DNA of 64,000 nt from Steromphala cineraria. Lineage: Eukaryota; Mollusca; Gastropoda; Trochida; Trochidae. Made by a program: the position numbers and the translations under genes. The stretch is taken from the NCBI GenBank assembly GCA_916613615.1, contig OU744721.1:54880747-54944746 (forward strand), in the 5' to 3' direction. The notes beneath the pieces were generated by a model. The model made no database searches. It saw only the letters and a program-made list of their open reading frames with translations, and had not been told where the DNA came from. Below are positions 1 through 55,152 of the stretch, one piece after another. Position 1 is the stretch's first letter; each line of letters starts with the position of its first letter.

Positions 1-358
1 ACTACTGCTTGTTCGGTTACATCTTGAAGCTCATGGGCTTCTACTACTGCTTGTTCGGTTACATCTTGAAGCTCATGGGCTTCTACTACTGCTTGTTCTG
101 TAACATCTTGAAGCTCATGGGCTTCTACTACTGCTTGTTCGGTTACATCCTGAAGCTCATGGGCTTCTACTACTGCTTGTTCGGTTACATCTTGAAGCTC
201 ATGGGCTTCTACTACTGCTTGTTCGGTTACATCTTGAAGCTCATGGGCTTCTACTACTGGTTGTTCTGTTACATCTTGAAGCTCATGGGCTTCTACTACT
301 GCTTGTTCTGTCACATCTTGAAGCTCATGGGCTTCTACTACTGCTTGTTCTGTCACAT
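1..358 (-). CDS. Exon coding an acidic 14-residue tandem repeat, 3' part of the GTF2I-like gene, runs off window
   Basis: Eight full copies and one partial copy of a 42-bp unit are open on the minus strand. Each encodes the 14-residue repeat EAHELQDVTEQAVV, acidic and without Lys or Arg. The frame has no stop and no ATG. Of five distinct nucleotide differences between units, four are synonymous in this frame (GTA/GTT/GTG, ACC/ACA, CAA/CAG) and one is Ala to Pro. The same changes are mostly non-synonymous in the open plus-strand frame, so the minus strand is the coding one. The exon starts after a pyrimidine-rich acceptor (TTTTTTTCAATTTCTACAAG, AG at 360-359) in phase 1. That fits exon A of the left module, which ends in phase 1 (joined codon AAT). 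Function of the repeat is unknown; an extended acidic or coiled-coil linker is possible. The exon continues beyond the left edge. Confidence 0.75.
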
Positions 359-362
359 CTTG

Positions 363-1331
363 TAGAAATTGAAAAAAATATTACTCAACATTGTGTAAAC
401 TATGATTTACTTAATAAGAGTTTTAGCTAAAAACAAATGTGGCACTTGTTAAAAATATTTTTCTTCTATTTCTCATTATAGTGATTTAGCATACTAATAT
501 CCTTTACTCATTTATTGTATAAACAATCCCACATTTTGTGTTTTTCTTATTTTTCAGAACCTGCTTGATTCACTATAACTTGCAAATCAGCAATTAAACA
601 GTAAGTAAAGTTATGCTTTTGTTTTAAGTACATTGGTGATTTACAGCAGGGGGTTGATAGCTTTGACCCTCCTCTTGTCCTCTGCAAAATATTATTTGGA
701 AAAGGAATTTATATTTACAATACAGTTATATTTTATTAATGCTATTTATCATTAATTTCTTAAAATATATTAACGATACAGGGGGGATCCGATGAAATAC
801 AATAGGTATTCCGATTTTAAGGTCACGAAACAATAAGTATCCCGATACATATAAGCTCCTGACATAATGATCTTTTCACCAACTTTTAAAGTCAGTTTAT
901 CTTAAGTAAGAATAAATTTACTTGAAGCCTTTTTGATGTAATCGTAAAATATTATTAAACTTCAAAATTTTAGAAGAGGTTATTGTGCATAATGAAGTAT
1001 CTTTTTAATGCATTTAATGTTTTGAGCATCTACACTGAGAATTTATCATTATTTTATTTATCCCGATACGCATCCTTCGATACGATACGATATATTGTGA
1101 GACCCATAAATCAAAATACGATAATTGTTGTATCATAACATCTCTAGATAACAGGTTTAGGTGTGTCAAGTTTTGAGAAAACCTAATTTGAATGTTTATC
1201 AGATTTGGATATTAAGTTTATGCGATAGCTTTATTTCATATATAACAGTTTTCATTATAATATATAGAACAATATCCTTATGTGATGATATGGCTATTAG
1301 AATCCTTATGATTGACGTAAGATTAATATAC
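363..1331. other. Intron or spacer between the repeat exon and damaged exon C of the left module
   Basis: AT-rich sequence with no convincing exon on either strand. It holds the short words ATCCCGATAC near 1060 and a related one near 840. A possible 18-nt micro-exon on the minus strand at 578-561 is discussed in the findings. A plus-strand stretch at 558-600 is framed by TTTTTCAG and GTAAGT but has no frame open throughout. Confidence 0.5.
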
Positions 1332-1497
1332 CTTCTTATGATCACTTTCGGGGTATCTGCATTTTCAAGAAGCTGTTTCCATCTCGAATTGCCAATTGAC
1401 TTGGGCTTTGACAGAATGAAGCCTGATGGTTACCCTTCTAGAAAGACATCTTTTCCATACTGACTGTAGGGGAATTGGCGTTTTCCTGTGGCTTCAA
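1332..1497 (-). pseudogene. Exon C of module 1 with in-frame stop
   Basis: Homologous to C exons at 4933-5098 and 8356-8521, but TTA (Leu of G-L-P) is TAA at 1432-1430. Other changes are missense (for example T-P-K-V-I-I-R-R against T-M-N-V-I-I-R-R; N-S-R-W against N-S-R-C). Splice sites are kept. It shows that copy 1 is the most diverged copy; it may serve as a terminating exon or be skipped. Confidence 0.75.
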
Positions 1498-1743
1498 CTG
1501 TGATCAGAAGTATTTTTTCAGGTGTCTTGAATAATGTGAATTTTTTAAATTGTGAAATATTTGGTTTTTGATAGGATGCAAGCACAAAATAGAAAATTTA
1601 TGATACAACATTTCAAGAAAAGAACATCTATGTTTATTTTAATTCTATAGCTTTTCTTATTTGATTAGGTTTAAAACAATTCTGAAGTGTCTGCAATTAA
1701 TATATTTGTGTGAAATCAAAAGCATAGGCCCATAAAAACAATT

Positions 1744-2087
1744 CTTTAAGGAGCAGTAGCACGTTTTAAGGGGGAATATGAGGTGAATCATGTCAGGAAA
1801 ATAAAAATTAATGGTTCCAAATGAAACAGTAAAAATTCAAATATATAATGTAAAGTTTAGCCGTGCAATTTCTTTTTCTAACACAAACTGAATTAAAAAC
1901 GTTCACACAAAATGGCCGCCAATGGATTTTATGTGAAATTTATACTTGACCTCTAAATATCGATGATTGAGTTGTGTTACGAGATTTTTGACACTTTCAA
2001 AATAATACATTTAGTATTAACCTCCAGTTATCAGTGAAAATTTTGAAATATAAAACTTTCAAAAAACGTGCTACTGCCCCTTTAAAG
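1744..2087. mobile_element. GGGGCAGTAGCACG-family MITE (complete in unit 1)
   Basis: Inverted ends CTTTAAGGAGCAGTAGCACG and CGTGCTACTGCCCCTTTAAAG. The interior words TGGCCGCCAATGGA and ACACAAACTGAATTAAAAACGTTCAC are shared with other family members in inverse orientation. In units 2 and 3 only the left part is left (5345-5519, 8768-8942). Confidence 0.8.
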
Positions 2088-2116
2088 TCAATTGGTAAAA
2101 TAGCATAGTGACTTGA

Positions 2117-2181
2117 AGTATTTCCTATTGAGGAGATCTCTTACTGCATCCTTGTTAGAATATTTGTCTACTTGCTGTTGA
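2117..2181 (-). pseudogene. Damaged exon D of module 1
   Basis: The coding part is still recognisable (D-K-Y-S-N-K-D-A-V-R-D-L-L-N-R-K-Y). The acceptor region of copies 2 and 3 (CTTTCAGATGG) is replaced by ACTCAAACTCAACAG, which puts the exon out of phase with exon A. The GC donor is changed to TC (TACT|TCAAGT). Neither end can be used in the original frame. Confidence 0.7.
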
Positions 2182-2406
2182 GTTTGAGTATCATGGAATA
2201 AGTAATTATTCAGGAAATAATATGGCAAAATACTGGAATGCTTTATTGCATAGAAAATTCTCTTTGATCATTGTGATTGAGATTTTGATTGTCATATTTT
2301 GAGAAGTTAAGCTTGCCTTAATGCATTAGCATTAAGATTATTTAAAGAACACAAGAAAATAAATTGATTAATGACACATTTGGATGCACTCATGCACAAT
2401 ACTTAC

Positions 2407-2548
2407 TAAATGATTCTAAAAATTCTTGCTGGAAATTTGGTCGTTTTTTCAGGAATGACTCTCCTTTGGTTGATCCTGAGATAATCAGGTGCTGTTCATC
2501 GGCAATGAGGACCGCACTGTCTACGCCGATTGCCTCTAGTTTAGAACA
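2407..2548 (-). CDS. GTF2I-like gene, exon A of module 1
   Basis: Identical to the other A exons. Donor GTAAGT at 2406-2401, acceptor AG at 2550-2549. It ends in phase 1 (A). Because exons D and C of this module are damaged, it is probably spliced to the repeat exon at 358, which also begins in phase 1 with AT (joined codon AAT). Confidence 0.85.
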
Positions 2549-2656
2549 CTGTTAAAACAGGAAAACATTTGCCGGTAACCTCATATTTACACAGCATAAA
2601 TTTTTGTGTATAAAAGTTTCAGGGACATTTTAGACTGTATAGTGGGTAGCAAGTTT

Positions 2657-2994
2657 CTAGGGATGTCAGGATACATCGATTCATCTTTGTGGTACAGTTT
2701 ACAATATGATACAAAAAACAGTTAAATCTATCATGATGCAAGTTTTGATGGCAATCCCTAAAAAATGTTGTGAAAATCAATTCAACAAATCTAGGTGTGT
2801 TTTTAAAATCCAATTTCCTTTCATGCTTCAGAGTTTTTCAAAAAGAAGTTGGCTTGTTTTGGGTTAAAATTATGGTAGTAGGTTACTAAAATAATTATTG
2901 TTAAAATATTAAATTTAGCTCATTAAATTAATTTATGTCTCCATAATAATGTCAAATTCACTGTATCATGAAGTAGCAGTACTGTGACAACCCT
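2657..2994. mobile_element. Possible hAT-type MITE inside each tandem unit
   Basis: Starts TAGGGATGTCAGGATAC and ends GTGACAACCCTG, imperfect inverted ends of the CAGGGRTGTCA type seen in hAT elements. No clear 8-bp target duplication. Copies at about 6080-6417 and 9503-9840. Confidence 0.35.
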
Positions 2995-3514
2995 GGTTGC
3001 TTCAGCAATGGAATCAAAAAAGCAATTGGCCTAAACGGATTAGCAAACTATTGAAGAATTTGCTTTATCAATCCAATGCTTTATCAAAAGTGTTTAGATA
3101 AATGTTTTGCCTAATGAACATCTTCTAACTAGATCTGTAAACTTCAACACCAAATGACACCTGAGGTGATGTTTTTTGGGTTGAGCTATTTTTTTATGCA
3201 TGTAAAATGTATACATTTAAATAATTTAGCTATTACTGAAATTTCAAGTTTTTATGCAACTTCCCTCTTGTACTGGTTTTAGCTCATATTGTCATAAGGG
3301 GCTATCTTTATCTATAGTAGGGTACTGCTCTCCCCGATGACAACCCCCATAAAATGTGGAAATTCATTCCTGTGTTTTGAGGGTTCTTTTCAAATCCCTA
3401 CCCCTATCCCCACTTAAATTACAGTTATTCACTATCCAAAAAAAAGGTGATTGTGATTTATTGCAGCCTGACTGCCCTGTTCTATATTATTATGTTTTGT
3501 GTGCTTTACTCTAC

Positions 3515-3663
3515 CTGATCGGAAATTTTCCTAATTAATTTCCTGGCCAACTTCTTGGTGTCACCCAAATCTGTTGATTGGTCCTTTTCTCTCCATTGCT
3601 TCTTTTCCTGGAGGGAAAGTTTCTTCCACAGAGTGGACCACTCTTGGAACTTGTTAGTTGATT
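3515..3663 (-). CDS. GTF2I-like gene, exon B of module 1
   Basis: As in modules 2 and 3 apart from one synonymous change at 3641 (Glu codon GAG instead of GAA). Acceptor AG at 3665-3664, donor GTAGAG from 3514. Confidence 0.75.
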
Positions 3664-3720
3664 CTAAACATAGAGCATGAATGCATTGAACTATCAACTT
3701 TTAACTCTGCTTTATGAGTA

Positions 3721-4057
3721 ATTTTATATTTTAAATTTTTCACTGATAATTGTAGGTTAATGTTATATGTATAATTTTCACAGTGTCAAAAATCTCATTA
3801 CACAAGCCAATCATCCATAGTCAGGGAACAAAGTATGAAGATTCATATAAAATCCATTGGCGGCCATTTTATGTGAACACCTTTAATTCATTTTGTGTAA
3901 CAAAAAGGAATCGCATGGCTAAAGTCTACATTATATATTTGAATTATTACTGCTCCATTTAGTTTAAATACATTGTCTTTCATTTGGAAGCATTACTTTT
4001 CATTTTCCTGACATCACCATATATTACCCATAAAAACGTGCTACTGCCCCTTTAAAG
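3721..4057. mobile_element. GGGGCAGTAGCACG-family MITE lacking its left end
   Basis: Interior and right end (CGTGCTACTGCCCCTTTAAAG) match the family; the left inverted end is missing. Copies at 7144-7480 and 10567-10903. Confidence 0.75.
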
Positions 4058-4319
4058 ACCATCTATTATATCAAGCCTATTTTTGTAATCAAATTCCACA
4101 TCCTTCTCCATAGCACTTTACACAGTCAATTATGGATGTTCAAATATCAATTTCTCCCCTCTCATAAAATGTTATTACAATAATTACACTTTATCATGTG
4201 AGCACTGGCAAGTGTAAAACAACTGTCATTTCATAACCTAATTATCCATGCGAAGTGTTGACAATCATCCCATTATTTTATTCCCGGGGGTCTCCTATTG
4301 AAGAAATTCACTACTTGAC

Positions 4320-4357
4320 CTGTGTTCATTTCCTCATAAAATATGTGGTATCGGGTT
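4320..4357 (-). CDS. GTF2I-like gene, exon E of module 1
   Basis: Same 38 nt and splice sites as the other E exons. Confidence 0.65.
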
Positions 4358-4454
4358 CTGTGAAAGGTATATGATCATAACAGAGACATGCATTCAAGAT
4401 TATCTAGGGTGTTGCAAAACTTGTTATGAGAAGACAAACCGGTCCATTTTAGAC

Positions 4455-4645
4455 CTTAAAGGGGCAGTAGCACGTTTTTTTGCAAATTTTATATTTCAAT
4501 TTTTCACTGATAATTATTTTTACGTTGATGCAAAATGTATAATTTTGATAGTGTCAGAACTCTCATTATAAAAAACAATCATTCATAATCAAAGAACAAA
4601 TTGTTAAGATTCCATAAAGTCAATTGGCGGCCATTTTTGTAATGA
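4455..4645. mobile_element. GGGGCAGTAGCACG-family MITE, left half only
   Basis: Begins CTTAAAGGGGCAGTAGCACG and stops after the word TTGGCGGCCATTTTTGT. Copies at 7878-8068 and 11301-11491. Confidence 0.75.
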
Positions 4646-4932
4646 CATTCTACCCGGAAGTACCTTTTAGAAACAGTAACTTTAAAATTAGTAGCTTTTT
4701 GCATCAGAAATGGAAGTTTTGACGTAATAGATCGAGCAGCTTCAGATACAAGGTTCTAGCTGACAAAGGGAGATAACTGAATTTCTATTTCCAATTTGTC
4801 TGAGGTATTGTTAGCTTTCATTTATTCGCAAACTCGGGATGTGTCTCCGTTTTCATTATAATATATAGAACAATATCCTTATGTGATGATATGGCTAATA
4901 GAATCCTTATGATTGACGTAAGATTAATATAC

Positions 4933-5098
4933 CTTCTTATGATCACGTTCATGGTATCTGCATTTTCAAGAAGCTGTTTACATCTAGAATTGCCCATTGA
5001 CTTGGGCTTTGACAGAATGAAGCCTGATGGTAACCCTTCTAGAAAGACATCTTTTCCATACTGACTGTAGGGGAATTGGCGTTTTCCTGTGGCTTCAA
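4933..5098 (-). CDS. GTF2I-like gene, exon C of module 2
   Basis: Identical to exon C of module 3 with the GTF2I-repeat signature open throughout. Ends AGAAG|GTATAT. The block boundary at 4849 lies just downstream, within the following intron. Confidence 0.85.
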
Positions 5099-5529
5099 CT
5101 GTGATCAGAAGTATTTTTTCAGGTGTCTTGAATAATGTGAATTTTTTAAATTGTGAAACATTTGGTTTTTGATAGGATGCAAGCACAAAATAGAAAACTT
5201 ATGATACAACATTTCAAAAAAAGAACATCTATGTTTATTTTAATTGTATAGCTTTTCTTATTTGATTAGGTTTAAAACAATTCTGAAGTGTCTGCAATTA
5301 ATATATTAGTGTGAAATCAAAAGCATAGGCCCATAAAAACAATTCTTAAAGGAGCAGTAGCACGTTTATGTCAGGAAAATAAAAATTAATGGTTCCAAAT
5401 GAAACAGTAAAAATTCAAATATATAATGTCAAGTTAAGCCGTGCAATTTCTTTTTCTAACACAAACTGAATTAAAAACGTTCACACAAAATGGCCGCCAA
5501 TGGATTTTATGTGAAATTTAGTGACTTGC

Positions 5530-5598
5530 AGTATTTCCTATTGAGGAGATCTCTTACTGCATCCTTGTTAGAATATTTGTCTACTTGCTGTTGACCAT
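5530..5598 (-). CDS. GTF2I-like gene, exon D of module 2, GC-AG donor
   Basis: Identical to exon D of module 3, with acceptor AG at 5600-5599 and GCAAGT donor at 5529-5524. Confidence 0.65.
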
Positions 5599-5829
5599 CT
5601 GAAAGTTTTTTTATCATGGAATAAGTAATTATTCAGGAAATAATATGGCAAAATACTGGAATGCTTTATTGCATAGAAAATTCTCTTTGATCATTGTGAT
5701 TGAGATTTTGATTGTCATATTTTGAGAAGTTAAGCTTGCCTTAATGCATTAGCATTAAGATTATTTAAAGAACACAAGAAAATAAATTGATTAATGACAC
5801 ATTTGGATGCACTCATGCACAATACTTAC

Positions 5830-5971
5830 TAAATGATTCTAAAAATTCTTGCTGGAAATTTGGTCGTTTTTTCAGGAATGACTCTCCTTTGGTTGATCCT
5901 GAGATAATCAGGTGCTGTTCATCGGCAATGAGGACCGCACTGTCTACGCCGATTGCCTCTAGTTTAGAACA
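5830..5971 (-). CDS. GTF2I-like gene, exon A of module 2
   Basis: Identical to exon A of module 3 (TFII-I N-terminal-like segment), same acceptor and GTAAGT donor, phase 0 in and 1 out. Confidence 0.85.
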
Positions 5972-6937
5972 CTGTTAAAACAGGAAAACATTTGCCGGTA
6001 ACCTCATATTTACACAGCATAAATTTTTGTGTATAAAAGTTTCAGGGACATTTTAGACTGTATAGTGGGTAGCAAGTTTCTAGGGATGTCAGGATACATC
6101 GATTCATCTTTGTGGTACAGTTTACAATATGATACAAAAAACAGTTAAATCTATCATGATGCAAGTTTTGATGGCAATCCCTAAAAAATGTTGTGAAAAT
6201 CAATTCAACAAATCTAGGTGTGTTTTTAAAATCCAATTTCCTTTCATGCTTCAGAGTTTTTCAAAAAGAAGTTGGCTTGTTTTGGGTTAAAATTATGGTA
6301 GTAGGTTACTAAAATAATTATTGTTAAAATATTAACTTTAGCTCATTAAATTAATTTATGTCTCCATAATAATGTCAAATTCACTGTATCATGAAGTAGC
6401 AGTACTGTGACAACCCTGGTTGCTTCAGCAATGGAATCAAAAAAGCAATTGGCCTAAACGGATTAGCAAACTATTGAAGAATTTGCTTTATCAATCCAAT
6501 GCTTTATCAAAAGTGTTTAGATAAATGTTTTGCCTAATGAACATCTTCTAACTAGATCTGTAAACTTCAACACCAAATGACACCTGAGGTGATGTTTTTT
6601 GGGTTGAGCTATTTGTTTATGCATGTAAAATGTATACATTTAAATAATTTAGCTATTACTGAAATTTCAAGTTTTTATGCAACTTCCCTCTTGTACTGGT
6701 TTTAGCTCATATTGTCATAAGGGGCTATCTTTATCTATAGTAGGGTACTGCTCTCCCCGATGACAACCCCCATAAAATGTGGAAATTCATTCCTGTGTTT
6801 TGAGGGTTCTTTTCAAATCCCTACCCCTATCCCCACTTAAATTACAGTTATTCACTATCCAAAAAAAAGGTGATTGTGATTTATTGCAGCCTGACTGCCC
6901 TGTTCTATATTATTATGTTTTGTGTGCTTTACTCTAC

Positions 6938-7086
6938 CTGATCGGAAATTTTCCTAATTAATTTCCTGGCCAACTTCTTGGTGTCACCCAAATCTGTTGA
7001 TTGGTCCTTTTCTCTCCATTGCTTCTTTTCCTGGAGGGAAAGTTTCTTCCACAGAGTGGACCATTCTTGGAACTTGTTAGTTGATT
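6938..7086 (-). CDS. GTF2I-like gene, exon B of module 2
   Basis: Identical to exon B of module 3 (HMG-box-like core and basic helix), phase 1 in and 0 out. Confidence 0.75.
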
Positions 7087-7742
7087 CTAAACATAGAGCA
7101 TGAATGCATTGAACTATCAACTTTTAACTCTGCTTTATGAGTAATTTTATATTTTAAATTTTTCACTGATAATTGTAGGTTAATGTTATATGTATAATTT
7201 TCACAGTGTCAAAAATCTCATTACACAAGCCAATCATCCATAGTCAGGGAACAAAGTATGAAGATTCATATAAAATCCATTGGCGGCCATTTTATGTGAA
7301 CACCTTTAATTCATTTTGTGTAACAAAAAGGAATCGCATGGCTAAAGTCTACATTATATATTTGAATTATTACTGCTCCATTTAGTTTAAATACATTGTC
7401 TTTCATTTGGAAGCATTACTTTTCATTTTCCTGACATCACCATATATTACCCATAAAAACGTGCTACTGCCCCTTTAAAGACCATCTATTATATCAAGCC
7501 TATTTTTGTAATCAAATTCCACATCCTTCTCCATAGCACTTTACACAGTCAATTATGGATGTTCAAATATCAATTTCTCCCCTCTCATAAAATGTTATTA
7601 CAATAATTACACTTTATCATGTGAGCACTGGCAAGTGTAAAACAACTGTCATTTCATAACCTAATTATCCATGCGAAGTGTTGACAATCATCCCATTATT
7701 TTATTCCCGGGGGTCTCCTATTGAAGAAATTCACTACTTGAC

Positions 7743-7780
7743 CTGTGTTCATTTCCTCATAAAATATGTGGTATCGGGTT
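7743..7780 (-). CDS. GTF2I-like gene, exon E of module 2
   Basis: Same sequence and splice sites as exon E of module 3. Preceded in the spliced model by exon C of module 3 (ends AG, phase 2), giving joined codon AGA. Followed by exon B at 7086 (G plus AA gives Glu). This junction is what allows modules to be chained in one protein. Confidence 0.65.
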
Positions 7781-8355
7781 CTGTGAAAGGTATATGATCA
7801 TAACAGAGACATGCATTCAAGATTATCTAGGGTGTTGCAAAACTTGTTATGAGAAGACAAACCGGTCCATTTTAGACCTTAAAGGGGCAGTAGCACGTTT
7901 TTTTGCAAATTTTATATTTCAATTTTTCACTGATAATTATTTTTACGTTGATGCAAAATGTATAATTTTGATAGTGTCAGAACTCTCATTATAAAAAACA
8001 ATCATTCATAATCAAAGAACAAATTGTTAAGATTCCATAAAGTCAATTGGCGGCCATTTTTGTAATGACATTCTACCCGGAAGTACCTTTTAGAAACAGT
8101 AACTTTAAAATTAGTAGCTTTTTGCATCAGAAATGGAAGTTTTGACGTAATAGATCGAGCAGCTTCAGATACAAGGTTCTAGCTGACAAAGGGAGATAAC
8201 TGAATTTCTATTTCCAATTTGTCTGAGGTATTGTTAGCTTTCATTTATTCGCAAACTCGGGATGTGTCTCCGTTTTCATTATAATATATAGAACAATATC
8301 CTTATGTGATGATATGGCTAATAGAATCCTTATGATTGACGTAAGATTAATATAC

Positions 8356-8521
8356 CTTCTTATGATCACGTTCATGGTATCTGCATTTTCAAGAAGCTGT
8401 TTACATCTAGAATTGCCCATTGACTTGGGCTTTGACAGAATGAAGCCTGATGGTAACCCTTCTAGAAAGACATCTTTTCCATACTGACTGTAGGGGAATT
8501 GGCGTTTTCCTGTGGCTTCAA
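8356..8521 (-). CDS. GTF2I-like gene, exon C of module 3 (core of GTF2I-like repeat)
   Basis: A 166-nt exon, acceptor AATACTTCTGATCACAG and donor AGAAG|GTATAT, phase 1 in and 2 out. The 54 codons carry the GTF2I-repeat signature in order: E-A-T-G, F-P-Y-S-Q, V-F-L-E-G-L-P-S-G, K-P-K-S-M-G, L-L-E-N and V-I-I-R-R. The family pattern is E-A-x-G, V-P-Y-x-K, V-x-G-L-P-x-G, P-x-x-x-G, I-L and F-I-I-K-R. Known GTF2I repeats bind DNA and mediate partner contacts in the nucleus; a similar role here is inference. If unspliced, the frame would read on to a stop near 8241, so a read-through isoform is possible. Confidence 0.85.
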
Positions 8522-8952
8522 CTGTGATCAGAAGTATTTTTTCAGGTGTCTTGAATAATGTGAATTTTTTAAATTGTGAAACATTTGGTTTTTGATAGGA
8601 TGCAAGCACAAAATAGAAAACTTATGATACAACATTTCAAAAAAAGAACATCTATGTTTATTTTAATTGTATAGCTTTTCTTATTTGATTAGGTTTAAAA
8701 CAATTCTGAAGTGTCTGCAATTAATATATTAGTGTGAAATCAAAAGCATAGGCCCATAAAAACAATTCTTAAAGGAGCAGTAGCACGTTTATGTCAGGAA
8801 AATAAAAATTAATGGTTCCAAATGAAACAGTAAAAATTCAAATATATAATGTCAAGTTAAGCCGTGCAATTTCTTTTTCTAACACAAACTGAATTAAAAA
8901 CGTTCACACAAAATGGCCGCCAATGGATTTTATGTGAAATTTAGTGACTTGC

Positions 8953-9021
8953 AGTATTTCCTATTGAGGAGATCTCTTACTGCATCCTTGTTAGAATATT
9001 TGTCTACTTGCTGTTGACCAT
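8953..9021 (-). CDS. GTF2I-like gene, exon D of module 3 (first helix of GTF2I-like repeat), GC-AG donor
   Basis: A 69-nt exon, acceptor AAAAAAACTTTCAG, phase 1 in and 1 out. It reads xAT, then G-Q-Q-Q-V-D-K-Y-S-N-K-D-A-V-R-D-L-L-N-R, K-Y and T. The end that keeps the frame is a non-canonical GC donor, TACT|GCAAGT, otherwise a perfect match to the U1 consensus. Joined to exon C it gives K-Y-F-E-A-T-G, which matches the K-Y-x-E-A-x-G of GTF2I repeats. The GT donor three bases further on (AA|GTCACT) would bring an immediate stop in exon C. Confidence 0.65.
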
Positions 9022-9252
9022 CTGAAAGTTTTTTTATCATGGAATAAGTAATTATTCAGGAAATAATATGGCAAAATACTGGAATGCTTTATTGCATAGA
9101 AAATTCTCTTTGATCATTGTGATTGAGATTTTGATTGTCATATTTTGAGAAGTTAAGCTTGCCTTAATGCATTAGCATTAAGATTATTTAAAGAACACAA
9201 GAAAATAAATTGATTAATGACACATTTGGATGCACTCATGCACAATACTTAC

Positions 9253-9394
9253 TAAATGATTCTAAAAATTCTTGCTGGAAATTTGGTCGTTTTTTCAGGA
9301 ATGACTCTCCTTTGGTTGATCCTGAGATAATCAGGTGCTGTTCATCGGCAATGAGGACCGCACTGTCTACGCCGATTGCCTCTAGTTTAGAACA
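9253..9394 (-). CDS. GTF2I-like gene, exon A of module 3 (TFII-I N-terminal-like segment)
   Basis: A 142-nt exon with strong signals: acceptor TTTTCCTGTTTTAACAG and donor TTTA|GTAAGT, phase 0 in and 1 out. GC content is clearly above the surroundings. Key stretches are C-S-K-L-E, D-S-A-V-L-I-A-D-E, S-G-S-T-K-G-E-S-F-L and N-F-Q-Q-E-F-L. These line up in order with the first 75 or so residues of vertebrate TFII-I as I remember them (C-K-E-L, A-C-I-A-V-Y-E, V-G-T-E-R-G-R-A-F-V, D-F-Q-K-D-F-V). The GTF2I-like repeat follows in D+C, in the same order as in TFII-I. Identical copies at 5830-5971 and 2407-2548. Confidence 0.85.
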
Positions 9395-10360
9395 CTGTTA
9401 AAACAGGAAAACATTTGCCGGTAACCTCATATTTACACAGCATAAATTTTTGTGTATAAAAGTTTCAGGGACATTTTAGACTGTATAGTGGGTAGCAAGT
9501 TTCTAGGGATGTCAGGATACATCGATTCATCTTTGTGGTACAGTTTACAATATGATACAAAAAACAGTTAAATCTATCATGATGCAAGTTTTGATGGCAA
9601 TCCCTAAAAAATGTTGTGAAAATCAATTCAACAAATCTAGGTGTGTTTTTAAAATCCAATTTCCTTTCATGCTTCAGAGTTTTTCAAAAAGAAGTTGGCT
9701 TGTTTTGGGTTAAAATTATGGTAGTAGGTTACTAAAATAATTATTGTTAAAATATTAACTTTAGCTCATTAAATTAATTTATGTCTCCATAATAATGTCA
9801 AATTCACTGTATCATGAAGTAGCAGTACTGTGACAACCCTGGTTGCTTCAGCAATGGAATCAAAAAAGCAATTGGCCTAAACGGATTAGCAAACTATTGA
9901 AGAATTTGCTTTATCAATCCAATGCTTTATCAAAAGTGTTTAGATAAATGTTTTGCCTAATGAACATCTTCTAACTAGATCTGTAAACTTCAACACCAAA
10001 TGACACCTGAGGTGATGTTTTTTGGGTTGAGCTATTTGTTTATGCATGTAAAATGTATACATTTAAATAATTTAGCTATTACTGAAATTTCAAGTTTTTA
10101 TGCAACTTCCCTCTTGTACTGGTTTTAGCTCATATTGTCATAAGGGGCTATCTTTATCTATAGTAGGGTACTGCTCTCCCCGATGACAACCCCCATAAAA
10201 TGTGGAAATTCATTCCTGTGTTTTGAGGGTTCTTTTCAAATCCCTACCCCTATCCCCACTTAAATTACAGTTATTCACTATCCAAAAAAAAGGTGATTGT
10301 GATTTATTGCAGCCTGACTGCCCTGTTCTATATTATTATGTTTTGTGTGCTTTACTCTAC

Positions 10361-10509
10361 CTGATCGGAAATTTTCCTAATTAATTTCCTGGCCAACTTC
10401 TTGGTGTCACCCAAATCTGTTGATTGGTCCTTTTCTCTCCATTGCTTCTTTTCCTGGAGGGAAAGTTTCTTCCACAGAGTGGACCATTCTTGGAACTTGT
10501 TAGTTGATT
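10361..10509 (-). CDS. GTF2I-like gene, exon B of module 3 (HMG-box-like core)
   Basis: A 149-nt exon, acceptor ATGCTCTATGTTTAG and donor GATCAG|GTAGAG, phase 1 in and 0 out. It has 49 codons and begins S-T-N-K-F-Q-E-W-S-T-L-W-K-K-L-S-L-Q-E-K. After the HMG-like core comes a basic helix (K-K-L-A-R-K-L-I-R-K) and S-D-Q. With exon E it forms a short HMG-box-like unit, which in known proteins binds DNA minor groove. That role here is inference from pattern only. The unit-1 copy differs by one synonymous change (GAG/GAA at 3641). Confidence 0.75.
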
Positions 10510-11165
10510 CTAAACATAGAGCATGAATGCATTGAACTATCAACTTTTAACTCTGCTTTATGAGTAATTTTATATTTTAAATTTTTCACTGATAATTGTA
10601 GGTTAATGTTATATGTATAATTTTCACAGTGTCAAAAATCTCATTACACAAGCCAATCATCCATAGTCAGGGAACAAAGTATGAAGATTCATATAAAATC
10701 CATTGGCGGCCATTTTATGTGAACACCTTTAATTCATTTTGTGTAACAAAAAGGAATCGCATGGCTAAAGTCTACATTATATATTTGAATTATTACTGCT
10801 CCATTTAGTTTAAATACATTGTCTTTCATTTGGAAGCATTACTTTTCATTTTCCTGACATCACCATATATTACCCATAAAAACGTGCTACTGCCCCTTTA
10901 AAGACCATCTATTATATCAAGCCTATTTTTGTAATCAAATTCCACATCCTTCTCCATAGCACTTTACACAGTCAATTATGGATGTTCAAATATCAATTTC
11001 TCCCCTCTCATAAAATGTTATTACAATAATTACACTTTATCATGTGAGCACTGGCAAGTGTAAAACAACTGTCATTTCATAACCTAATTATCCATGCGAA
11101 GTGTTGACAATCATCCCATTATTTTATTCCCGGGGGTCTCCTATTGAAGAAATTCACTACTTGAC

Positions 11166-11203
11166 CTGTGTTCATTTCCTCATAAAATATGTGGTATCGG
11201 GTT
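11166..11203 (-). CDS. GTF2I-like gene, exon E of module 3 (start of HMG-box-like segment)
   Basis: A 38-nt exon between acceptor ATATACCTTTCACAG and donor ACAG|GTCAAG, phase 2 in and phase 1 out. It reads xxA, then T-R-Y-H-I-F-Y-E-E-M-N-T, then G. Joined to exon B it gives R-x-R-Y-H-I-F-Y-E-E followed by F-Q-E-W-S-x-L-W-K-K-L-S-x-x-E-K-K-Q-W. That matches the HMG-box pattern (aromatic plus F near the start, then W-K-x-L-S-x-x-E-K). The loop is shorter than in classical HMG boxes. It is too short to be seen as an ORF. Identical copies at 7743-7780 and 4320-4357. Confidence 0.65.
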
Positions 11204-11804
11204 CTGTGAAAGGTATATGATCATAACAGAGACATGCATTCAAGATTATCTAGGGTGTTGCAAAACTTGTTATGAGAAGACAAACCGGTCCATTTTAGAC
11301 CTTAAAGGGGCAGTAGCACGTTTTTTTGCAAATTTTATATTTCAATTTTTCACTGATAATTATTTTTACGTTGATGCAAAATGTATAATTTTGATAGTGT
11401 CAGAACTCTCATTATAAAAAACAATCATTCATAATCAAAGAACAAATTGTTAAGATTCCATAAAGTCAATTGGCGGCCATTTTTGTAATGACATTCTACC
11501 CGGAAGTACCTTTTAGAAACAGTAACTTTAAAATTAGTAGCTTTTTGCATCAGAAATGGAAGTTTTGACGTAATAGATCGAGCAGCTTCAGATACAAGGT
11601 TCTAGCTGACAAAGGGAGATAACTGAATTTATATTTCCAATTTGTCTGAGGTATTGTTAGCTTTCATTTATTGGCAAACTCGGGATGTGTCTCCGCCAAC
11701 ATATTCAACTGCTCTATTAATAGATTATCCTAATAAAATATAGGAAACCTAGACGTTTACTTATAATGTGATTTCCTCGAGGCAATCTTCTGTTGAGAAC
11801 TTAC

Positions 11805-11849
11805 GACAGCTGGACTATAGTAAGCTTCCTCTTTCTTTCTTTGTCATCA
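11805..11849 (-). CDS. Possible exon upstream of module 3, basic segment
   Basis: A 45-nt minus-strand stretch ends at a consensus donor (GTC|GTAAGT). It starts after a weak acceptor (TTTAACCAAG). In phase 2 it reads xxT then D-D-K-E-R-K-R-K-L-T-I-V-Q-L and ends in phase 2, the phase needed by exon E at 11203. The joined codon would be TCA. The matching position in the duplicate block near 50.84 kb lacks most of this sequence. Acceptor quality and shortness make this tentative; the true upstream exon may lie elsewhere. Confidence 0.25.
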
Positions 11850-12690
11850 CTTGGTTAAAGGTACCAACTAAGTTCTTGTAGGTAACAATGTATCAGTATC
11901 AGTAGAGAAGAAGGTTAACTTCATTATTCAGTAGACCATCAATAATTGTTAATGGTCACATGTGAAGAAGTAAGATTGATTTCATTACATTTTTCTTAAT
12001 TGTTTTTCGAGATGTTTTTTAGAAAACGTTAATACTGTGGATAGAACAATTTGTGAAGAAGGAAAGAGAAAGCACAGTGATTGAATAATGAACCCGACTC
12101 ATTTCTTTTTATTCAAACATTATTTAAACTGAATTAACATGTAGTTAAAGTTTCTTTTATGGATATATTTTCACATGAGTGATATGTAATTGTCTCCAGT
12201 AACTAAAAATGAGGCACTGCCAGTTTATGTTTTCTACTCCAGAGTACATTACAAAACATTGAGTATAATTAAATGTAACTTCAGTATTGAGGTAAATCCT
12301 CTCTCCCTTAATAATTACCCATTTAAATGCAAATGCTGACAACTGACAGTTTTAGTTTTTATCATTAGAATTAATCAACATTTGAATCTAATTTCAGTTA
12401 AAAGGAGTGATTGCACAATTTCACAAGGAAAATCCAACATCTGATCAATTGCTTTTCATTTAACAAATTGATTTTATGATTACCATTTAAGTCAAGGCAG
12501 ACGAAAAAGTACTAACCTATTAAATCTGTAAGGGAATTTAAGAGTTTTCATTTATGTTTAAAAGACATGTTTGTCCACATATTTTAATTCTCTTCTCATT
12601 TGATATTACAAATCATTTTGAAACTATAAATTGTATTCCATTTTCCTCATCTAATGTTATGCTGATGTTCAATATAAAATAAAATATGTA

Positions 12691-14402
12691 TGTTAGCGGC
12701 AATAAGGAGAATCAGGAAGTAACGTACTTCCTAGGCAATAAGACACTGCCTAGGCAATAAGAAGAAAGGCTCATTTAACCAGGCAGTAGCGTTTATGCCT
12801 TAGGCAATAACACTACTGCCTGCAACTTTGACCAGGTAGTAACGCTACTGCCTAAGTACTTTTAAAGTGTTATAGAGTTCAAATTGTCAAAACATACTAA
12901 ACTGATATAACATGTTTATTAAAAAAAACAGCTTGTTTTATTTATTTGAATAATGGAAATATTCCCTATCCATCAAACATATCTTTGCTCACTTTTTCTA
13001 TGAATGATAATGTTTTTGATAGAAATGCCATCTTCCCTCAAGTGGAGCTGCCTCGGACGCCAAATGGCTTATGTCAAACATTCCATTAAGATACATAGTA
13101 AAGACTATCTTTGAACAACACTGTTGTAACTAGTTGTCACGTTTTTATCAAATGTAGGATTGAGATGCCGAATTACGAAAGACCATTGGTACCACATTTG
13201 AAATTTGTTTTTTGTCTTTCAAAACTCGTTATTACGAGAAAAATCTCGTAATTACGAGAAATTAACTCGTAATTACGAGATTATAAGACCATATCTGTAA
13301 TTTGTATATTGTATTTAAAAACTCGTTATTACGACAAAAATACTCGTAATTACGAGAATAAAATCGTAATTACGAGAATAAACTCGTAATTACGAGTTTT
13401 GAAAGACTACATTTGTAACTTTTATTCTATCTAATATAAACTCGTAATTATGAGTTTTAAAAGACAAAATACAAGTTTCAAACGATGTCTAATAATCTCG
13501 TGATTACAAGTTTATATAAGATAGAATACAAGTTACAAATGTAGTCTTTCAAAACTCGTTTTTAAATACAACTTACAAATTACAGATATGGTCTTAAAAT
13601 CTCGTTATTACGAGATTTTTCTTGTAATAACGAGTTTTTAAAGACAAAAAACAAATTTCAAATGTGGTACCAATGATCTTTCGTACCGAATGACATAAGG
13701 ACAATTTGAAAAGTATTTTTATTTTTCATTGTATTAACTTGATTTTTATTTTATCAGTTTTCACAATTAATGCTCATCAGTGAACATAATGTTGGTAACA
13801 GTTTCCTTCAATTCCTTGTGTGTTTTTATCTGACATATGAACCTGCAATATGATCAAATGGAATTTTCCATATCCATACAGTGTTAGAAAAAGCTTTAAT
13901 TGATAAAGCATGTTGTGCCATTTGTCTGGGATATAGCTCGATCTAGTCGCCCGTTTGTTTCATTTTTTTCAAGTAATAGTAACTGTTTCTATTTATAGAC
14001 AGGGAAAGTTAACCCAAGTTATGACACCCAAGCTTCACTCAGCTATTCAGGCCAGATTGGTGAGTTCGCTTTCCCTATCAATCAAGCAATCTGTTGAATT
14101 TCAATTGTCTGCTTTAAACCCAACCAAACAATCTCACTTTTGACAAAGATTATATATTAATTAAAAATTGATTTTTTACAAATACATTTATTCTATGATG
14201 ATACACATCTTTGACAATATATTAAATGTCTTCAGGCAGTAGCACTACTGCCTAAGGCAATAAGCAGAATTCACCCAAAAATATCTAGGCAGTAAGCTTA
14301 CATGTATTCCCTGAATTTTTTAGGCAATAAGTTATTGCCTAGGTAGTATCTTAATGCCTAGGAAATAACGTTACTGCCTGATTCCCCTTATTGCCGCTAA
14401 CA
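12691..14402. mobile_element. 1.7-kb TIR element rich in AGGCAGTA/AGGCAATA words
   Basis: Inverted ends TGTTAGCGGCAATAAGG and CCTTATTGCCGCTAACA, flanked on both sides by TGTA (12687-12690 and 14403-14406). Each end has about 170 bp full of AGGCAGTA and AGGCAATAA words in both orientations. The duplicate block has no such element at about 51.49 kb, giving an empty site. No transposase frame is visible; a short plus-strand frame around 12950-13090 ends in a stop. Likely a non-autonomous DNA transposon of unknown superfamily. Confidence 0.8.
13170..13690. mobile_element. Nested palindromic element with CTCGTAATTACGAG arrays
   Basis: About 515 bp lying wholly inside the 1.7-kb element. The left arm (TACGAAAGACCATTGGTACC...) and right arm (...GGTACCAATGATCTTTCGTA) pair along most of their length, making a long hairpin with a small loop near 13455-13495. 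Both arms hold several copies of the self-complementary 14-mer CTCGTAATTACGAG or variants. Confidence 0.8.
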
Positions 14403-15326
14403 TGTACAAGTTTATTTCAAGTGACAGGGATATTAAGGAAAAAAGGGTCTAAAATATAAATACATATTACTCACATGTAATTGTATCAATACTACACGTA
14501 CATGAATTGCAGTAATTACAGAAATAACCTGACGTCCGACATTTTTACCAAAATAAGTTTTTTTATATCTTCTTTATCGCATATGGTTTCTTTTGAAGTG
14601 CTTTAAAATATAAACATAGATACAGGTTTTTTAGAAATCTTATCAACCGTTTTTGTTCGCCTTTCCATAATTGGTATCTATCTACACACCAGACAAAATG
14701 CTCCATGCTGGTTATATCAAATGAACACTGATTGCATGCAATAATCTGTTCAATAACATTTATGTCATGCAAAACGTACACAAATGATGAACTCTAGTCT
14801 CATATGTTTTTTTCACTAACTAACTAGACCATTTTAGATCTTCTCTTCTCTTTTTGCAAAAACATAATTTTATGAGGCCAAGACAATTATAAAAATAACA
14901 ATTGATGATTTTGGCGCCTGTAAGTTATTTTCAAACATTTTATTCATTTTCATAAGCCAATTTTATATAGAGAATTTACTTATCATTAAATAGTCAAGAG
15001 AGATGATTCTATTTGGAGCAAGAAAAGTGCTTGTCAGTAATAAGGCAGTCCTTGTGGTGTTTAGATAAAGTATTAGCATATTGTCTGTCTGTTTATGATG
15101 TAACTCCAATAATTCGTAAAGGAAGTTATCCCCTGGAACAATGTTAATCACCGTGGAATAATATTACATGATTAGTGAATGTTATCATACTAACCCAAAC
15201 TACGATAGCGAGACACCATAAAACATACCACTAGGGATGCCCTTAATGTTATTATCATTCCCACCCTCTTCATTTCCTGTCATAAACAGATGACTCTATT
15301 TACTATTAGGTGTAGCAACCAGATGT

Positions 15327-15682
15327 CTTAAAGGGGCAGTAGCACGTTTTTTGATAAGTTTATATTTTAAAATGTTCAGTGATACTTGTAAGTTAATGTT
15401 AAATGTATTATTTTGACAGTGTCAAAAATGTCATTACACAAGTCAATCATCCATGGTCAGGAAGATTTACATAAAATACATAGGCGGCCATTTTTGTGTG
15501 AACACCTTTAATTCATTTTCTATAAGAAAAGGGAATCGCATGGCTAAACTTTACGTTAAATATTTGAATTATTACTGCTCCATTTAGTTTAAATACATTG
15601 TCTTTCAATTGGAACCATTAATTTTCATTTTCCTGACATCACCTTATATTCCCCCTAAAAACGTGCTACTGTCCCTTTAAAG
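15327..15682. mobile_element. GGGGCAGTAGCACG-family MITE, full length
   Basis: Ends CTTAAAGGGGCAGTAGCACG and CGTGCTACTGTCCCTTTAAAG, 356 bp. The duplicate block reads AGAGGTCTTGAAGCATACTA at 51.90 kb without it, so this is an empty-site-proven insertion. The interior holds GGCGGCCATTTTTGTGTGAA. Confidence 0.9.
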
Positions 15683-16735
15683 CATACGTATACACAATGC
15701 AAATATTTATGTGGACTTACTATAATATGATATTTATGATATATAATACATTAAATAACAAACAGAGACATAATCGTAAATCATAATTATTTAAGTTACA
15801 ATATTTTTATAGTAAGAGCAACTACATTATAACATTATTTAAAAACAAATTAGTTATATATACAAGTTTCATTTGATATAGAAATTTTGACTGTAACATT
15901 TCCAAAAATGAAATTTACTTTTTAATTCATTAGAACTTGGAAATAATTGGATCCGAACAAACAAGAAGTATTAACTATGTATGTATTTATTTATGTATTC
16001 CTGGATGATTGATTTTTTGGAGTAAATTGCATTTTCTCTGAAGTCACAGTGCTATGTTTTTAGCTCTATCATTAAAGTTTTATTTCTTATACACATTAAC
16101 AGATTGCATTATTCGTTTGTGATTTAAGCATGAAAATACATGTAAACAAACGCTTGTCTCCACATCAACAAACATCTCCATCAAATTTGATAATAACTGC
16201 ATGTTGCTGCTGAAGACAGAACATCAATGAATCTGGTTATTATAAAACTTTATTATTTCGGTAATCATTTCTGCAGTATCAAAAAATGGATAACTATCTG
16301 TAATTAGAAATTAAGCTAAGCCTATTGGGAATTAGTGGCGCCAACAAGCATGTAAAATTAGATTAAACATCCATTCTCAAAGCTCGATTATGTCTTAGTT
16401 TTCTACTCATGGAAATCATCATAACTCTATCAGAGAAACAAATTTGCACATCAAAAGATTTCAAAGTATAGTTATAGAACCATCAAATAGAAAGACGTTT
16501 ACACGTGTAAACCATTGATTTGATGACTCAGGTATTATAAAATATAAATAATCAACCTTGTAGTGATAATAGTCTGTTACTCGAAACACTTCTGAAACAC
16601 CACAATTACAAAATTGCAATTGCTGTTTGCGATCAATTGTGGAAACCTAAGTTGAGATATCTGACACAGCTCATCAGTGATTTGAGACATGATATTTCTT
16701 AACCAATCGCCATTATGCTGCAATGACCTTCTAGT

Positions 16736-18489
16736 CATTCAAAATGTATTGGAACTGTTCCTAACAATAATACATAGATCAAACGCAATAATATAATGAT
16801 GTTTCTGGTCAAGGATTTTCAACTTATGGCCGAATTTGTTTGAATTTCGTTTATCTAGACAAGAATAAACCACTTCACCTAAACTAAACATCTCAACTGT
16901 ATTTACCTTCAAAACACATCGAACCGAGGCTAATATATTCCTAATCAATTGCTGTTTTCTTGTATCACAGCCAGAGACAAGCAACATATTAAATTTGGAA
17001 TCAGAAATATATTTTAACAATTTAACATACCTTTTAACAACAACTAAAACCAGGTATGTTCTTCCTTTAAAAGATAATCCTCTAATCGGTCCTGTTACTT
17101 TGCATTTATTATCTAAATTAACGAGGGATCAGATCTTGTAATATTGATCTGCAATAGGTCTTTTATTAGGAATTATGGTGCGTGACCAGCTTAATATTAC
17201 TCTCACTGGGTTGGCGACGAGGAATTAATAAGATCAGTCACAAGTTATAGCCATGGTTAATTTTCTCATAAAAAGTGCCCTTTTATCTGTCATTAAGACT
17301 CAAGCTTAACTAATAATCACAGCTTTTTTGGAAAGGGGTTCAAACAACAATTATCAATGTCTTATCATTGACAATTCAAATGTTAGATCTAAGCATAACA
17401 TTTTCCTCGACCGCAACTTTGAAAGTGAAGGGTTTTGCCTAACATCAATTAATCTCAAAATACATGTGCCTGTGGATGTTATATTGAGATCCAAATGGAC
17501 TTCTGAAATAAAACAAAGTCTAATTGACCCACATCCAGCCCTTTGTAATGCCTGCATATTTTTTCTAAGGTCACTAATATATATTGTGTATTCAAAACAT
17601 TGAAATCTATTTCTGCCAAGTTGTATTATTAGCCGACAGTCGATGTCTAAACAAAATAATAAGTAAATGAATAAAAAAGACACATTTGAAATAAAATGGA
17701 AGATTGTTTTATTTCTGAAAAAAACTATTTTATCTTGACGAGCAGATATTGTTTTCAATCAGAAATATAAAAAAATATTTTATCTTGACGAGCAGATATT
17801 GTTTTCGATAGGTATTTAATGTTCGCATGGCAAATTTGAAATATCTGACAAACATTATTCTTATGTGAAAAAGCTAACATATACTCGGGGTTTAATACAG
17901 CAGCTTGTAATTCCATCATGGATTAATACCATGAGCCAAATAACAATACAATCCTCAATAAATTTATGATTGTTCGAACAATGATTTGTGGCTCATTGTT
18001 ATGTAAAATGTTTTTAAAATTACATGATTCTTATTCTACGTCTGAATTAGTTCCAATTGTGCCTATTTCATGTAAATTGTATTTATTTAGTCTCAAATAT
18101 AAAAATCTGGAAAATGCTTTATACAATGCGGTTTAGCATGATCAAATAAAATTATTACCTACCAAATCCACAAATATTGCAAAGATTGTTTCTAGTACCA
18201 AAACGACTGTTTTTCTGGGCAGATTAACTAATTATTAAGAAAAACAGTTAGGTAACTACATATATTTCAGACAGAGAATCCTCACATACTCATATTTAAA
18301 CAAAGACTTTTTCTAGACCTTGTCATTAATAGACTTTATATTGACAACAAGCAGCATCATGAGCATTACTTTAATAGTATCTGAAACTAGTGGTGATGAG
18401 AAATACTGGCCATACAAAAGTGTGTAACATTAAAGCATGTAGGTATAACAATTAAGCTCATATTGAACTCACTCTCGATATGAATACGA
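16736..18489. other. No gene recognised
   Basis: AT-rich. Open frames on both strands around 16739-17020 and 17328-17758 have no splice context or recognisable motif and are judged chance. A 31-bp direct repeat lies at 17726-17756 and 17776-17806 (TATCTTGACGAGCAGATATT). A weak foldback lies at about 17930-18000 (ATGAGCCA / TGGCTCAT). From 16736 the sequence has no counterpart in the right-hand duplicate. Confidence 0.5.
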
Positions 18490-18513
18490 GGGGGGGGGGG
18501 GGGGGGGGGGGGG
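18490..18513 (+). repeat. Poly-G tract (24 G)
   Basis: An uninterrupted run of 24 G in an AT-rich background; true length is uncertain because homopolymers are error-prone in sequencing. Confidence 0.9.
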
Positions 18514-18542
18514 AATTAAACAAGACTATTTCCCTTAAAAAC

Positions 18543-18650
18543 CTCACTTTGCCTTGCTTTGCATTCCCTTCTCTTGAAATAGCTCACTTTGTCTTGATTT
18601 GCATTCCCTTCTCTTGAAATAGCTCACTTTGCCTTGATTTGCATTCCTTT
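18543..18650. repeat. 40-bp tandem repeat, about 2.7 copies
   Basis: Unit begins CTCACTTTGCCTTGCTTTGC and ends CTCTTGAAATAG; copies differ at one or two positions. It directly follows the poly-G tract. Confidence 0.85.
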
Positions 18651-19381
18651 TCAACGATTTATCTATCAATGATGTTTATCATTCGTCCATCATGATGAAA
18701 AAAACAATTTATTTATGGAAAACACATTTAAAACCCTTTACAATTGAATAATTAATAATTGTTGTGATAAATATCTGTGAGATGTTTTTTAAAAACTGAC
18801 AATTATACCAGTTCATGTACCTGCCAATGTAAAATTTTGTTATTTTTATCCCATCATGTCTAAGACGGCGTATTACCATAACCAATTCCTACCAATTATG
18901 GAGATATGTTGATGCACGGAAATTGAAACAAGTACCGGTCATCGAGCATGAAATTGAACGCACACTTAAAGTGTTCCTATTGTGTCTTAAGAAGCACCGG
19001 GATAGACGTATCTACATAGTGCCAGTAAGAATGTATTTTTCTGCAGAAAGACTTCAATATGATTAAAAGGCTTTTATTATCAAACAAGTTAATGAATTCT
19101 TACTTATTCAAGAAAAAACCTTTATGTATCTTATGGAGATGTATTGTAATTGTGATGTATTTAAATAGAACAAAAAATCCTGCATGAAACCTTAAGAAAA
19201 ACCTTGGAAAAAACCCAATCACATTTGATATTGTCACTAAATACAAATCAAATTTGGAATATGGATTAGGCATAATGGTTATATGAATCATGATTCAGTA
19301 TGCAAACTGATGACTTTTGAACTGTGTACTTGATAGCGCATATAACTCTGATTACATCCAATCAGGCTTTTCCCTTTCTAG
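18651..19381. other. No gene recognised
   Basis: AT-rich, no exon or repeat seen. The last 15 bases form a good acceptor (CTTTTCCCTTTCTAG). Confidence 0.5.
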
Positions 19382-19454
19382 CCCACAATCTCAGGTTATT
19401 AGGACAGCGGTTGGATCAGCATTTTTACTTGATCGTCCTCTGACGGGAGAGAAT
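19382..19454 (+). CDS. Possible exon preceding the exon at 19533
   Basis: Starts after acceptor CAGGCTTTTCCCTTTCTAG in phase 2 and reads P-Q-S-Q-V-I-R-T-A-V-G-S-A-F-L-L-D-R-P-L, T-G-E-N. The frame stays open to TAA at 19476-19478. A donor at 19455 (GTTATG, weak) would be exactly in phase 0 and would splice over 78 bp to the exon at 19533. Composition is protein-like, but the donor is poor. Confidence 0.25.
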
Positions 19455-19532
19455 GTTATGCTCTATGCCACTCTTTAATTTGTACAGAACTGAGTCATAC
19501 TTGTTATTCACATGAACCAATTCTATTTGCAG

Positions 19533-19690
19533 TTTCCAGACAATGCCTGTCTTATTGTGATCACCGGGGATCAACACGTCAAAGAGCTTTACCAAGGAGT
19601 TGAGTTGAGACAGATCTTCTTTCCACAGACCTACTGTTATCCACTTCTCGCACTAAATATTCTAAGATGCCCTTCATGTAAATTTGTCAG
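19533..19690 (+). CDS. Plausible internal exon of an unidentified plus-strand gene
   Basis: A 158-nt exon between acceptor CCAATTCTATTTGCAG and donor GTCAG|GTAATA, phase 0 in and 2 out. GC content is near half in an AT-rich setting. The 52 codons include I-V-I-T-G-D-Q-H-V-K-E-L-Y, V-E-L-R-Q-I-F-F-P-Q-T-Y and a C-P-S-C pair near the end that could be half of a zinc site. The opposite strand is interrupted by stops in all frames. I do not recognise the family. No certain neighbouring exon was found; the candidate at 19382-19454 is weak. Confidence 0.5.
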
Positions 19691-23335: not shown

Positions 23336-23404
23336 GGGCCAATACAGGAAAACTGGGCCAATACGAGCAAAACAGGGCCAATACGAGCAGACTGAGCCAG
23401 TACC
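23336..23404. repeat. Short tandem array of GGGCCAATAC, 19-20 bp period
   Basis: GGGCCAATAC at 23336, 23355 and 23375 and the variant GAGCCAGTAC at 23394. The word contains CCAAT. Immediately downstream is TGAGCATGCGCATAC, like an NRF-1 half-site. Confidence 0.8.
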
Positions 23405-23579
23405 AAGTCTGAGCATGCGCATACACGCAAATGGCTATCGCTTCAAATCTTTCAACATATATCAGTTCAACAATCTCATTGATAATTTTGATTTCGGTAA
23501 AAAATAACTCTATAATGTTGTGCATGTAAATTACAAAGAAGTTAATTAATGAAAAAAGTCATTACTCAAGTTTGGCCTT

Positions 23580-55104: not shown

Positions 55105-55152
55105 GAGTATTTTTTCTGTCTTTTGTTTTCTTTTATTATCGTTCTTGCGGCC

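Follow-up and report, generated by a model that had tools for sequence, protein, structure and literature searches.

In the literature, TFII-I is described as vertebrate-specific (PMC10721858, PMC9900109) and as having six repeats (PMC8155576), and GTF2I is described as deleted in Williams-Beuren syndrome. In GTF2IRD2 the GTF2I repeats are fused to a hAT transposase, and among fish, reptiles and frogs gene models bearing this name can represent transposons (PMC10641963); 'GTF2IRD' genes have also been reported as expanded in a wasp (PMC8314478). No paper linking GTF2I repeats to both an HMG box and a homeodomain was present among the matches listed, from a body of literature that mostly excludes subscription journals, and one of the matches listed for GTF2I with an HMG box and homeodomain holds GTF2I (a retina transcriptome, without the HMG box). 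Here we describe a tandem array of three units, lying on the minus strand of a 64,000-nucleotide stretch of a Steromphala cineraria assembly (GCA_916613615.1, contig OU744721.1, positions 54,880,747 to 54,944,746; hereafter the window), each unit carrying short exons or exon remnants called, in order of transcription, B, A, D and C. We consider it probable that this array is a paralogue, truncated at its 5' end and triplicated in tandem, from a multi-copy family of invertebrate genes, the fuller members of which are predicted transcription factors combining a homeodomain, an HMG box, a TFII-I N-terminal-like segment and a GTF2I repeat (exons H1-H2-B-A-D-C).

Judged by sequence comparison, exons A, D and C of the window are related to TFII-I, in agreement with the initial annotation, which had likened their product, in order, to the N-terminal region and first repeat of the vertebrate protein and had named Pfam GTF2I (PF02946) as the profile to be matched. 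A-D-C scores 30.1 bits on this profile (curated cut-off 27 bits). Spliced D and C reach 30.9 bits, as compared with 23.0 bits for C alone and no match for D alone; splicing thus makes for a better domain. As a control, the stop-masked frame of 3000-11999 was found to contain two GTF2I stretches (33.7 bits), and the best solved relative of the module is a GTF2IRD1 repeat (2dzr, E 8.7e-5). Exon A, when aligned to the N-terminal region of human GTF2I/GTF2IRD1 (a query not taken from a database), scores 18.4 bits, with none of 2000 shuffles as good, and its copies rank as the top three among the 1491 open reading frames (ORFs) of the window against the same human N-terminus (E 3e-5, the next being 0.24). 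The predicted structure of exon A gave no Foldseek match at E <= 0.001, an absence that is uninformative. Among relatives elsewhere in the genome the match to the N-terminal segment is weaker (shuffles as good per 1000: L019 0, L009 1, L024 2, L047 245), and L009 matches the solved I-repeats at E 1.2e-10.

Common to the window and the TFII-I family (GTF2I, GTF2IRD1) is an N-terminal-like segment followed directly by a GTF2I repeat, the order being identical, with the repeat matching both PF02946 and the solved I-repeats. Unlike in the TFII-I family, there is one I-repeat per module (an in-frame joining of the modules being unsupported), an HMG part precedes it, together with a homeodomain in the fuller relatives, and the host is an invertebrate. 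With GTF2IRD2 the locus shares a GTF2I repeat placed within a fusion protein; unlike GTF2IRD2, it has no transposase profile in the scanned frames (which cover only part of those in the window), and its kinship rests on the GTF2I repeat itself, not on a transposase misannotation of the kind met with in GTF2IRD2 models. No further Pfam family near the gene exceeded its cut-off in any scanned frame, and the scanned frames other than that of 3000-11999 gave nothing at E <= 0.1 or, for some of them, at E <= 1; these frames were minus 11598-26599, 26400-41401 and 48999-64000 (three frames each) and plus 34000-48999 and 49000-63999 (one frame each).

Exon B carries a W-K-x-L-S-x-x-E-K motif, as in HMG-box proteins (PF00505, PF09011), and its sequence resembles the latter half of such a box. 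The proposed fusion of an HMG-like segment to the TFII-I part was correct insofar as an HMG-like half adjoins it, but the first half of the box corresponds to exon H2 of the relatives and not to exon E, a 38-nt exon that the initial annotation had placed before B. Joined E and B of the window gave no Pfam HMG match; they score 8.7 bits against a home-made HMG hidden Markov model (11 of 2000 shuffles as good). The copies of exon B rank as the top three of the 1491 window ORFs in the HMG search, but at E 0.063, and hhalign of the window segment with HMG gave a probability of 13, with none of 60 shuffles as good. Exon B alone is predicted to fold into three helices; its model had two weak Foldseek matches, neither of them an HMG box, and VIA-align covered only those two chains, making this comparison uninformative.

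The architecture of the missing 5' part is provided by a relative on another contig (L050 on C3), a single module in which H1, H2, B, A, D and C follow one another on the same strand. H1 is a homeodomain-like exon, and H2 ends the homeodomain-like part and starts the HMG box, which B continues. Compared with HMG-box and homeodomain (PF00046) proteins, the box is here divided between H2 and B, with the window holding its second half alone, and the homeodomain is divided between H1 and H2 and fused to the HMG and TFII-I parts. Exons B, A, D and C of L050 with short flanks are 89-99% identical to the window at the DNA level, the GC donor included. The alignment of the two loci begins ~60 bp before B and continues onward, with none before that point, and a repeat resembling a miniature inverted-repeat transposable element (MITE) at 10557-10903 abuts this 5' limit of homology. 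A tblastn search of the window with H1 and H2 of the relatives gave no convincing match to either exon or to the homeodomain (best E 1.7). Window positions 1001-2793 (A, D and C of unit 1 plus the 3' flank) are 96% identical to C3, for which reason unit 1 seems to retain the native 3' side, the other two units being apparently later copies. Both indels that separate the window from C3 are in frame, and the single difference in the 47 codons of exon A is synonymous.

A PF02946 search of the same genome (1.27 Gb, 281 contigs) returned 20 further matches, all over the cut-off and all readable as GTF2I-like exons; the C exons of the window and of C3 are both missing from this set. A control set of 14 genomes gave no PF02946 match, which is uninformative here, since those named in it are prokaryotes. 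These loci fall into five groups of 2, 2, 9, 5 and 2 members (L009/L010; L011/L023; L012-L018, L020 and L022; L019, L021, L024, L025 and L028; L026/L027), and addition of the window/C3 group and of L047/L048 brings the number of groups to seven. All six exon types were found in order in L050, L009 and L010 (in the latter two, H1 with E 0.023 and D with E 0.15 are weak alone). Among the exon types that profiles recovered in loci not used as their seeds are H1 in L026 (E 1.5e-8), H2 in both L009 (8.6e-9) and the L012 group (1.6e-12), and, in L019, exon A (1.8e-16). No profile match to exon A was obtained in the L012, L011 and L026 groups; exon D was found in 5 of the 24 loci searched, and in L047 exons A and D lie in a single reading frame with no intron between them.

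The domain content of seven joined products supports the same architecture. HMG_box_2 (cut-off 22.4) is passed by L009 (25.1) and L026 (27.6), with L012 (20.2) below it; Homeodomain (cut-off 22.9) is passed by L026 (29.9) and L012 (30.8), and GTF2I (cut-off 27) by L009 (56.9) and L047 (28.9). The joined products of L050, L011 and L019 had no HMG domain over the cut-off, and those of L009, L011 and L050 no homeodomain. Splice sites were sought in eight loci, with only the expected phase displayed. A phase 1 acceptor of C was present in all eight and a phase 2 donor of C with a fair consensus in seven (that of L009 being weak); H2 has a phase 0 acceptor in 6/6 loci and a phase 1 donor that is GT in 4/6 and GC in L012, that of L026 being assigned by manual reading only. 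Most of these eight relatives have sites for B, A, D and C in the phases of the window; the B donor is ambiguous in L011 and L012.

The ratio of nonsynonymous to synonymous divergence (dN/dS, NG86) was finite in six of ten comparisons, and dN was below dS in every measurable case: between groups, 0.16 and 0.27 for A (L009 with L019 and L024) and 0.10 for H2 (L009 with L019); within groups, 0.22 for C (L011/L023) and 0.29 for C and 0.09 for B (L026/L027). Near-identical copies were excluded from these estimates as having too few changes. Large change counts (18-45) obtained in the L012 group were left unused, since shifted coordinates in L018 and a differing frame in L012 account for part of them. 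Exon B of L013, in the same group, holds a stop.

The nine copies of the L012 group lie on eight contigs, and the other eight align to L012 over ~2-8 kb, with main pieces 96.8-99.8% alike, one L017 piece at 93.8%, and differing ends. These gene-bearing stretches (L012-L018, L020, L022) are possibly a large mobile unit. The number and similarity of the copies would also be expected if the whole family were cargo of a large mobile element and not a host gene family; this we regard as unlikely, given that neither element ends nor a transposase were identified and that the other groups are few-copy and diverged, with dN below dS where measurable. No homologue of the module, of the L009 protein or of the MITE-like end was found in viral contigs, and none of the MITE-like end in prokaryote genome contigs. 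Further observations on individual members include a decayed copy with relics of H1, H2 and B (L041, C39:53462015-53465116), tandem-repeat reading frames that follow the GTF2I exon in L026/L027, and long overlapping ORFs 3' of exon C in L019, which look like a retroelement, with a reverse-transcriptase-like motif.

Within the window, B, A, D and C measure 149, 142, 69 and 166 nt, except that only 64 nt of D remain in unit 1; the D donor is GC (ACT/GCAAGT), and the D-C intron is accordingly of the GC-AG type. The chained phases proposed by the initial annotation hold for these four exons (Table 1), and with exon E the module does sum to 564 nt and is stop-free in units 2 and 3. The inference that added blocks would leave the frame intact does not hold for unit 1, where exon D has lost its acceptor through a 10-bp deletion and has TC in place of the GC donor, and exon C contains an in-frame TAA. 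Over their 3423 positions, introns counted, units 2 and 3 show two differences. This near-identity is indicative of a recent duplication (or an assembly repeat) and not of constraint, and their open frame counts once, not as two independent tests. The same two mismatches could be taken to mean that the tandem units are false duplicates of a single copy created by the assembly; this appears highly improbable in view of the distinctness of unit 1 in its D and C exons (94% over 1248-1942), clean unit edges and a contig of 90 Mb.

Exon E itself is probably not a real exon. It is the top of 18 open candidates of phase 2-1 between C and B and has good splice scores, but 7 of 39 equal-length stretches of the window hold an equally good candidate, and no match to it was found in L050; as a conserved exon it was rejected. 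This bears directly on the model of the initial annotation, a single multi-module gene in which E-B-A-D-C is repeated in frame and, as formulated here, continues into a possible exon Y. If A of unit 1 is joined to Y, 605 residues are open (the other two frames contain 32-33 stops when the joined exons are followed as far as A of unit 1). The minus strand of 1-362 is made of 42-nt repeats coding for a 14-residue unit, DVTEQAVVEAHELQ, in which variation is mostly at third positions: 8 of 9 changes among eight units are synonymous and confined to four variable columns. On the other hand, the linking exon E is at chance level, D and C of unit 1 are broken, the open frame of units 2 and 3 has the weight of a single observation, and neither the first half of the HMG box nor the homeodomain was found in the window. 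An amplified in-frame protein of many modules is therefore improbable.

In invertebrates with gene-body methylation, CpG depletion marks transcribed genes. The observed/expected (o/e) CpG ratio is 0.36 in unit 2 versus 0.62 for window positions 12-64 kb, as expected of a methylated transcribed gene body; 363-1247, between C of unit 1 and Y, is undepleted (0.77), contrary to a gene extending into Y. Taken jointly, unit 2 and 363-1247 have a ratio of 0.425, below all 477 overlapping control windows (lowest 0.434). The family loci have ratios of 0.31-0.46 in 8 of 10 cases measured, the exceptions being L012 (0.80) and L019 (0.70). This depletion in the window, like that of the eight loci, speaks against a wholly dead array, that is, a partial pseudogene copied in tandem and giving no transcript, as do the open B, A, D and C of units 2 and 3 and the single synonymous change in exon A. 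The missing 5' exons, the broken unit 1, the dN/dS of 0.60 relative to C3 and the occurrence of another decayed family relic on C39 all point the other way, and we give a dead array a little less than an even chance.

Several points weigh against the interpretation of the window as a truncated paralogue of a homeodomain-HMG-TFII-I family. The comparison of its module with C3 (dN 0.032, dS 0.054, ratio 0.60, 15 changed codons) leaves constraint on the window branch weak or uncertain, the changes being few. The C3 relative scores 21.0 bits for GTF2I, under the cut-off of 27, and its joined product, like those of L011 and L019, has no domain over a cut-off. The joined products, seven in all, were assembled by splice choice from sequence and not from cDNA. 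The exon profiles, run on 24 loci, were partly seeded from loci later found, and they detected exon A in just 10 of the 24. Upstream exons of the window could escape profile detection or lie outside the frames covered by the Pfam scans listed above.

A history consistent with a truncated and triplicated paralogue would begin with H1 and H2 being lost or never copied, beside the MITE-like repeat. Tandem duplication of the B-A-D-C part would have followed, at breakpoints with almost no common sequence, and D and C would then have decayed in the 3'-most unit. The array itself would make no complete family protein. The full-length members may be transcribed and, by analogy with these domains in other proteins, would bind DNA via the homeodomain and HMG box, with the TFII-I-like part available for further DNA or protein contacts.

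The invertebrate origin of the copy, suspected by the initial annotation, is upheld by COX1 of the same assembly (contig C281, assumed to be from the same animal as the window), in which 12 TGA codons are read as Trp. AGA/AGG occur at four places, where the vertebrate code would put four stops; one is the Ser of GIKIFSWLAT, and one lies early in the open frame, possibly ahead of the genuine start. AAA stands at the Lys of NHKDIGTLY and of GIKIFSW, and these residues are conserved in animals. This COX1 fits NCBI table 5 (protostomes or amphioxus) and not the vertebrate, tunicate or echinoderm codes, and by its appearance the protein may be molluscan. CpG content alone was abandoned as a guide to the host group, since comparable values can occur in fish.

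Table 1. Units, exons and repeats of the array and of the rest of the window
Feature	Position	Strand	Remarks
Unit 3 (first transcribed)	8273-11695	minus	3423 bp
Unit 2	4850-8272	minus	3423 bp; 2 mismatches to unit 3
Unit 1 (3'-most)	1248-4849	minus	3602 bp; D and C broken
Exon B, unit 3	10361-10509	minus	HMG-like box, second half; phase 1-0
Exon A, unit 3	9253-9394	minus	TFII-I N-terminal-like segment; phase 0-1
Exon D, unit 3	8953-9021	minus	GTF2I repeat, first part; phase 1-1; GC donor
Exon C, unit 3	8356-8521	minus	remainder of GTF2I repeat; phase 1-2
Exon B, unit 2	6938-7086	minus	
Exon A, unit 2	5830-5971	minus	
Exon D, unit 2	5530-5598	minus	
Exon C, unit 2	4933-5098	minus	
Exon B, unit 1	3515-3663	minus	
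Exon A, unit 1	2407-2548	minus	
Exon D remnant, unit 1	2117-2180	minus	acceptor deleted, donor altered
Exon C remnant, unit 1	1332-1497	minus	in-frame TAA
Proposed exon E, unit 3	11166-11203	minus	copies at 7743-7780 and 4320-4357; unsupported as exon
Possible exon Y	1-358	minus	42-nt repeats, 14-residue unit; phase-1 acceptor
MITE-like repeat, ~350 bp	10557-10903, 7134-7480, 3711-4057, 15328-15682, 35809-36178, 58436-58800, 62493-62833	no strand	

The end of the MITE-like repeat, AAAGGGGCAGTAGCACGTTTT, has 16 matches in the window (<=2 mismatches). Elsewhere in the window, 13191-13640 is an array of palindromic CTCGTAATTACGAG units (CpG o/e 1.43 in 13001-14000), and G+C content is locally raised, at 41%, in 28001-30000, where there is also an imperfect 10-nt repeat of TACGACTCAA.

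It is conceivable, as a tentative proposal, that TFII-I is not a vertebrate invention: invertebrates may hold an expanded homeodomain-HMG-TFII-I family with one I-repeat, from which the vertebrate protein would have arisen by loss of the HMG box and homeodomain and by multiplication of the repeat, through exon-block duplication like that seen in the window. For annotation, such short exons are easily overlooked, and true relatives of the repeat need to be separated from transposon-derived 'GTF2IRD2' models (PMC10641963). If the proposal is true, a many-membered invertebrate family combining the N-terminal segment with an I-repeat, a homeodomain and an HMG box would give TFII-I an older origin, testable in genome and RNA data from protostomes.

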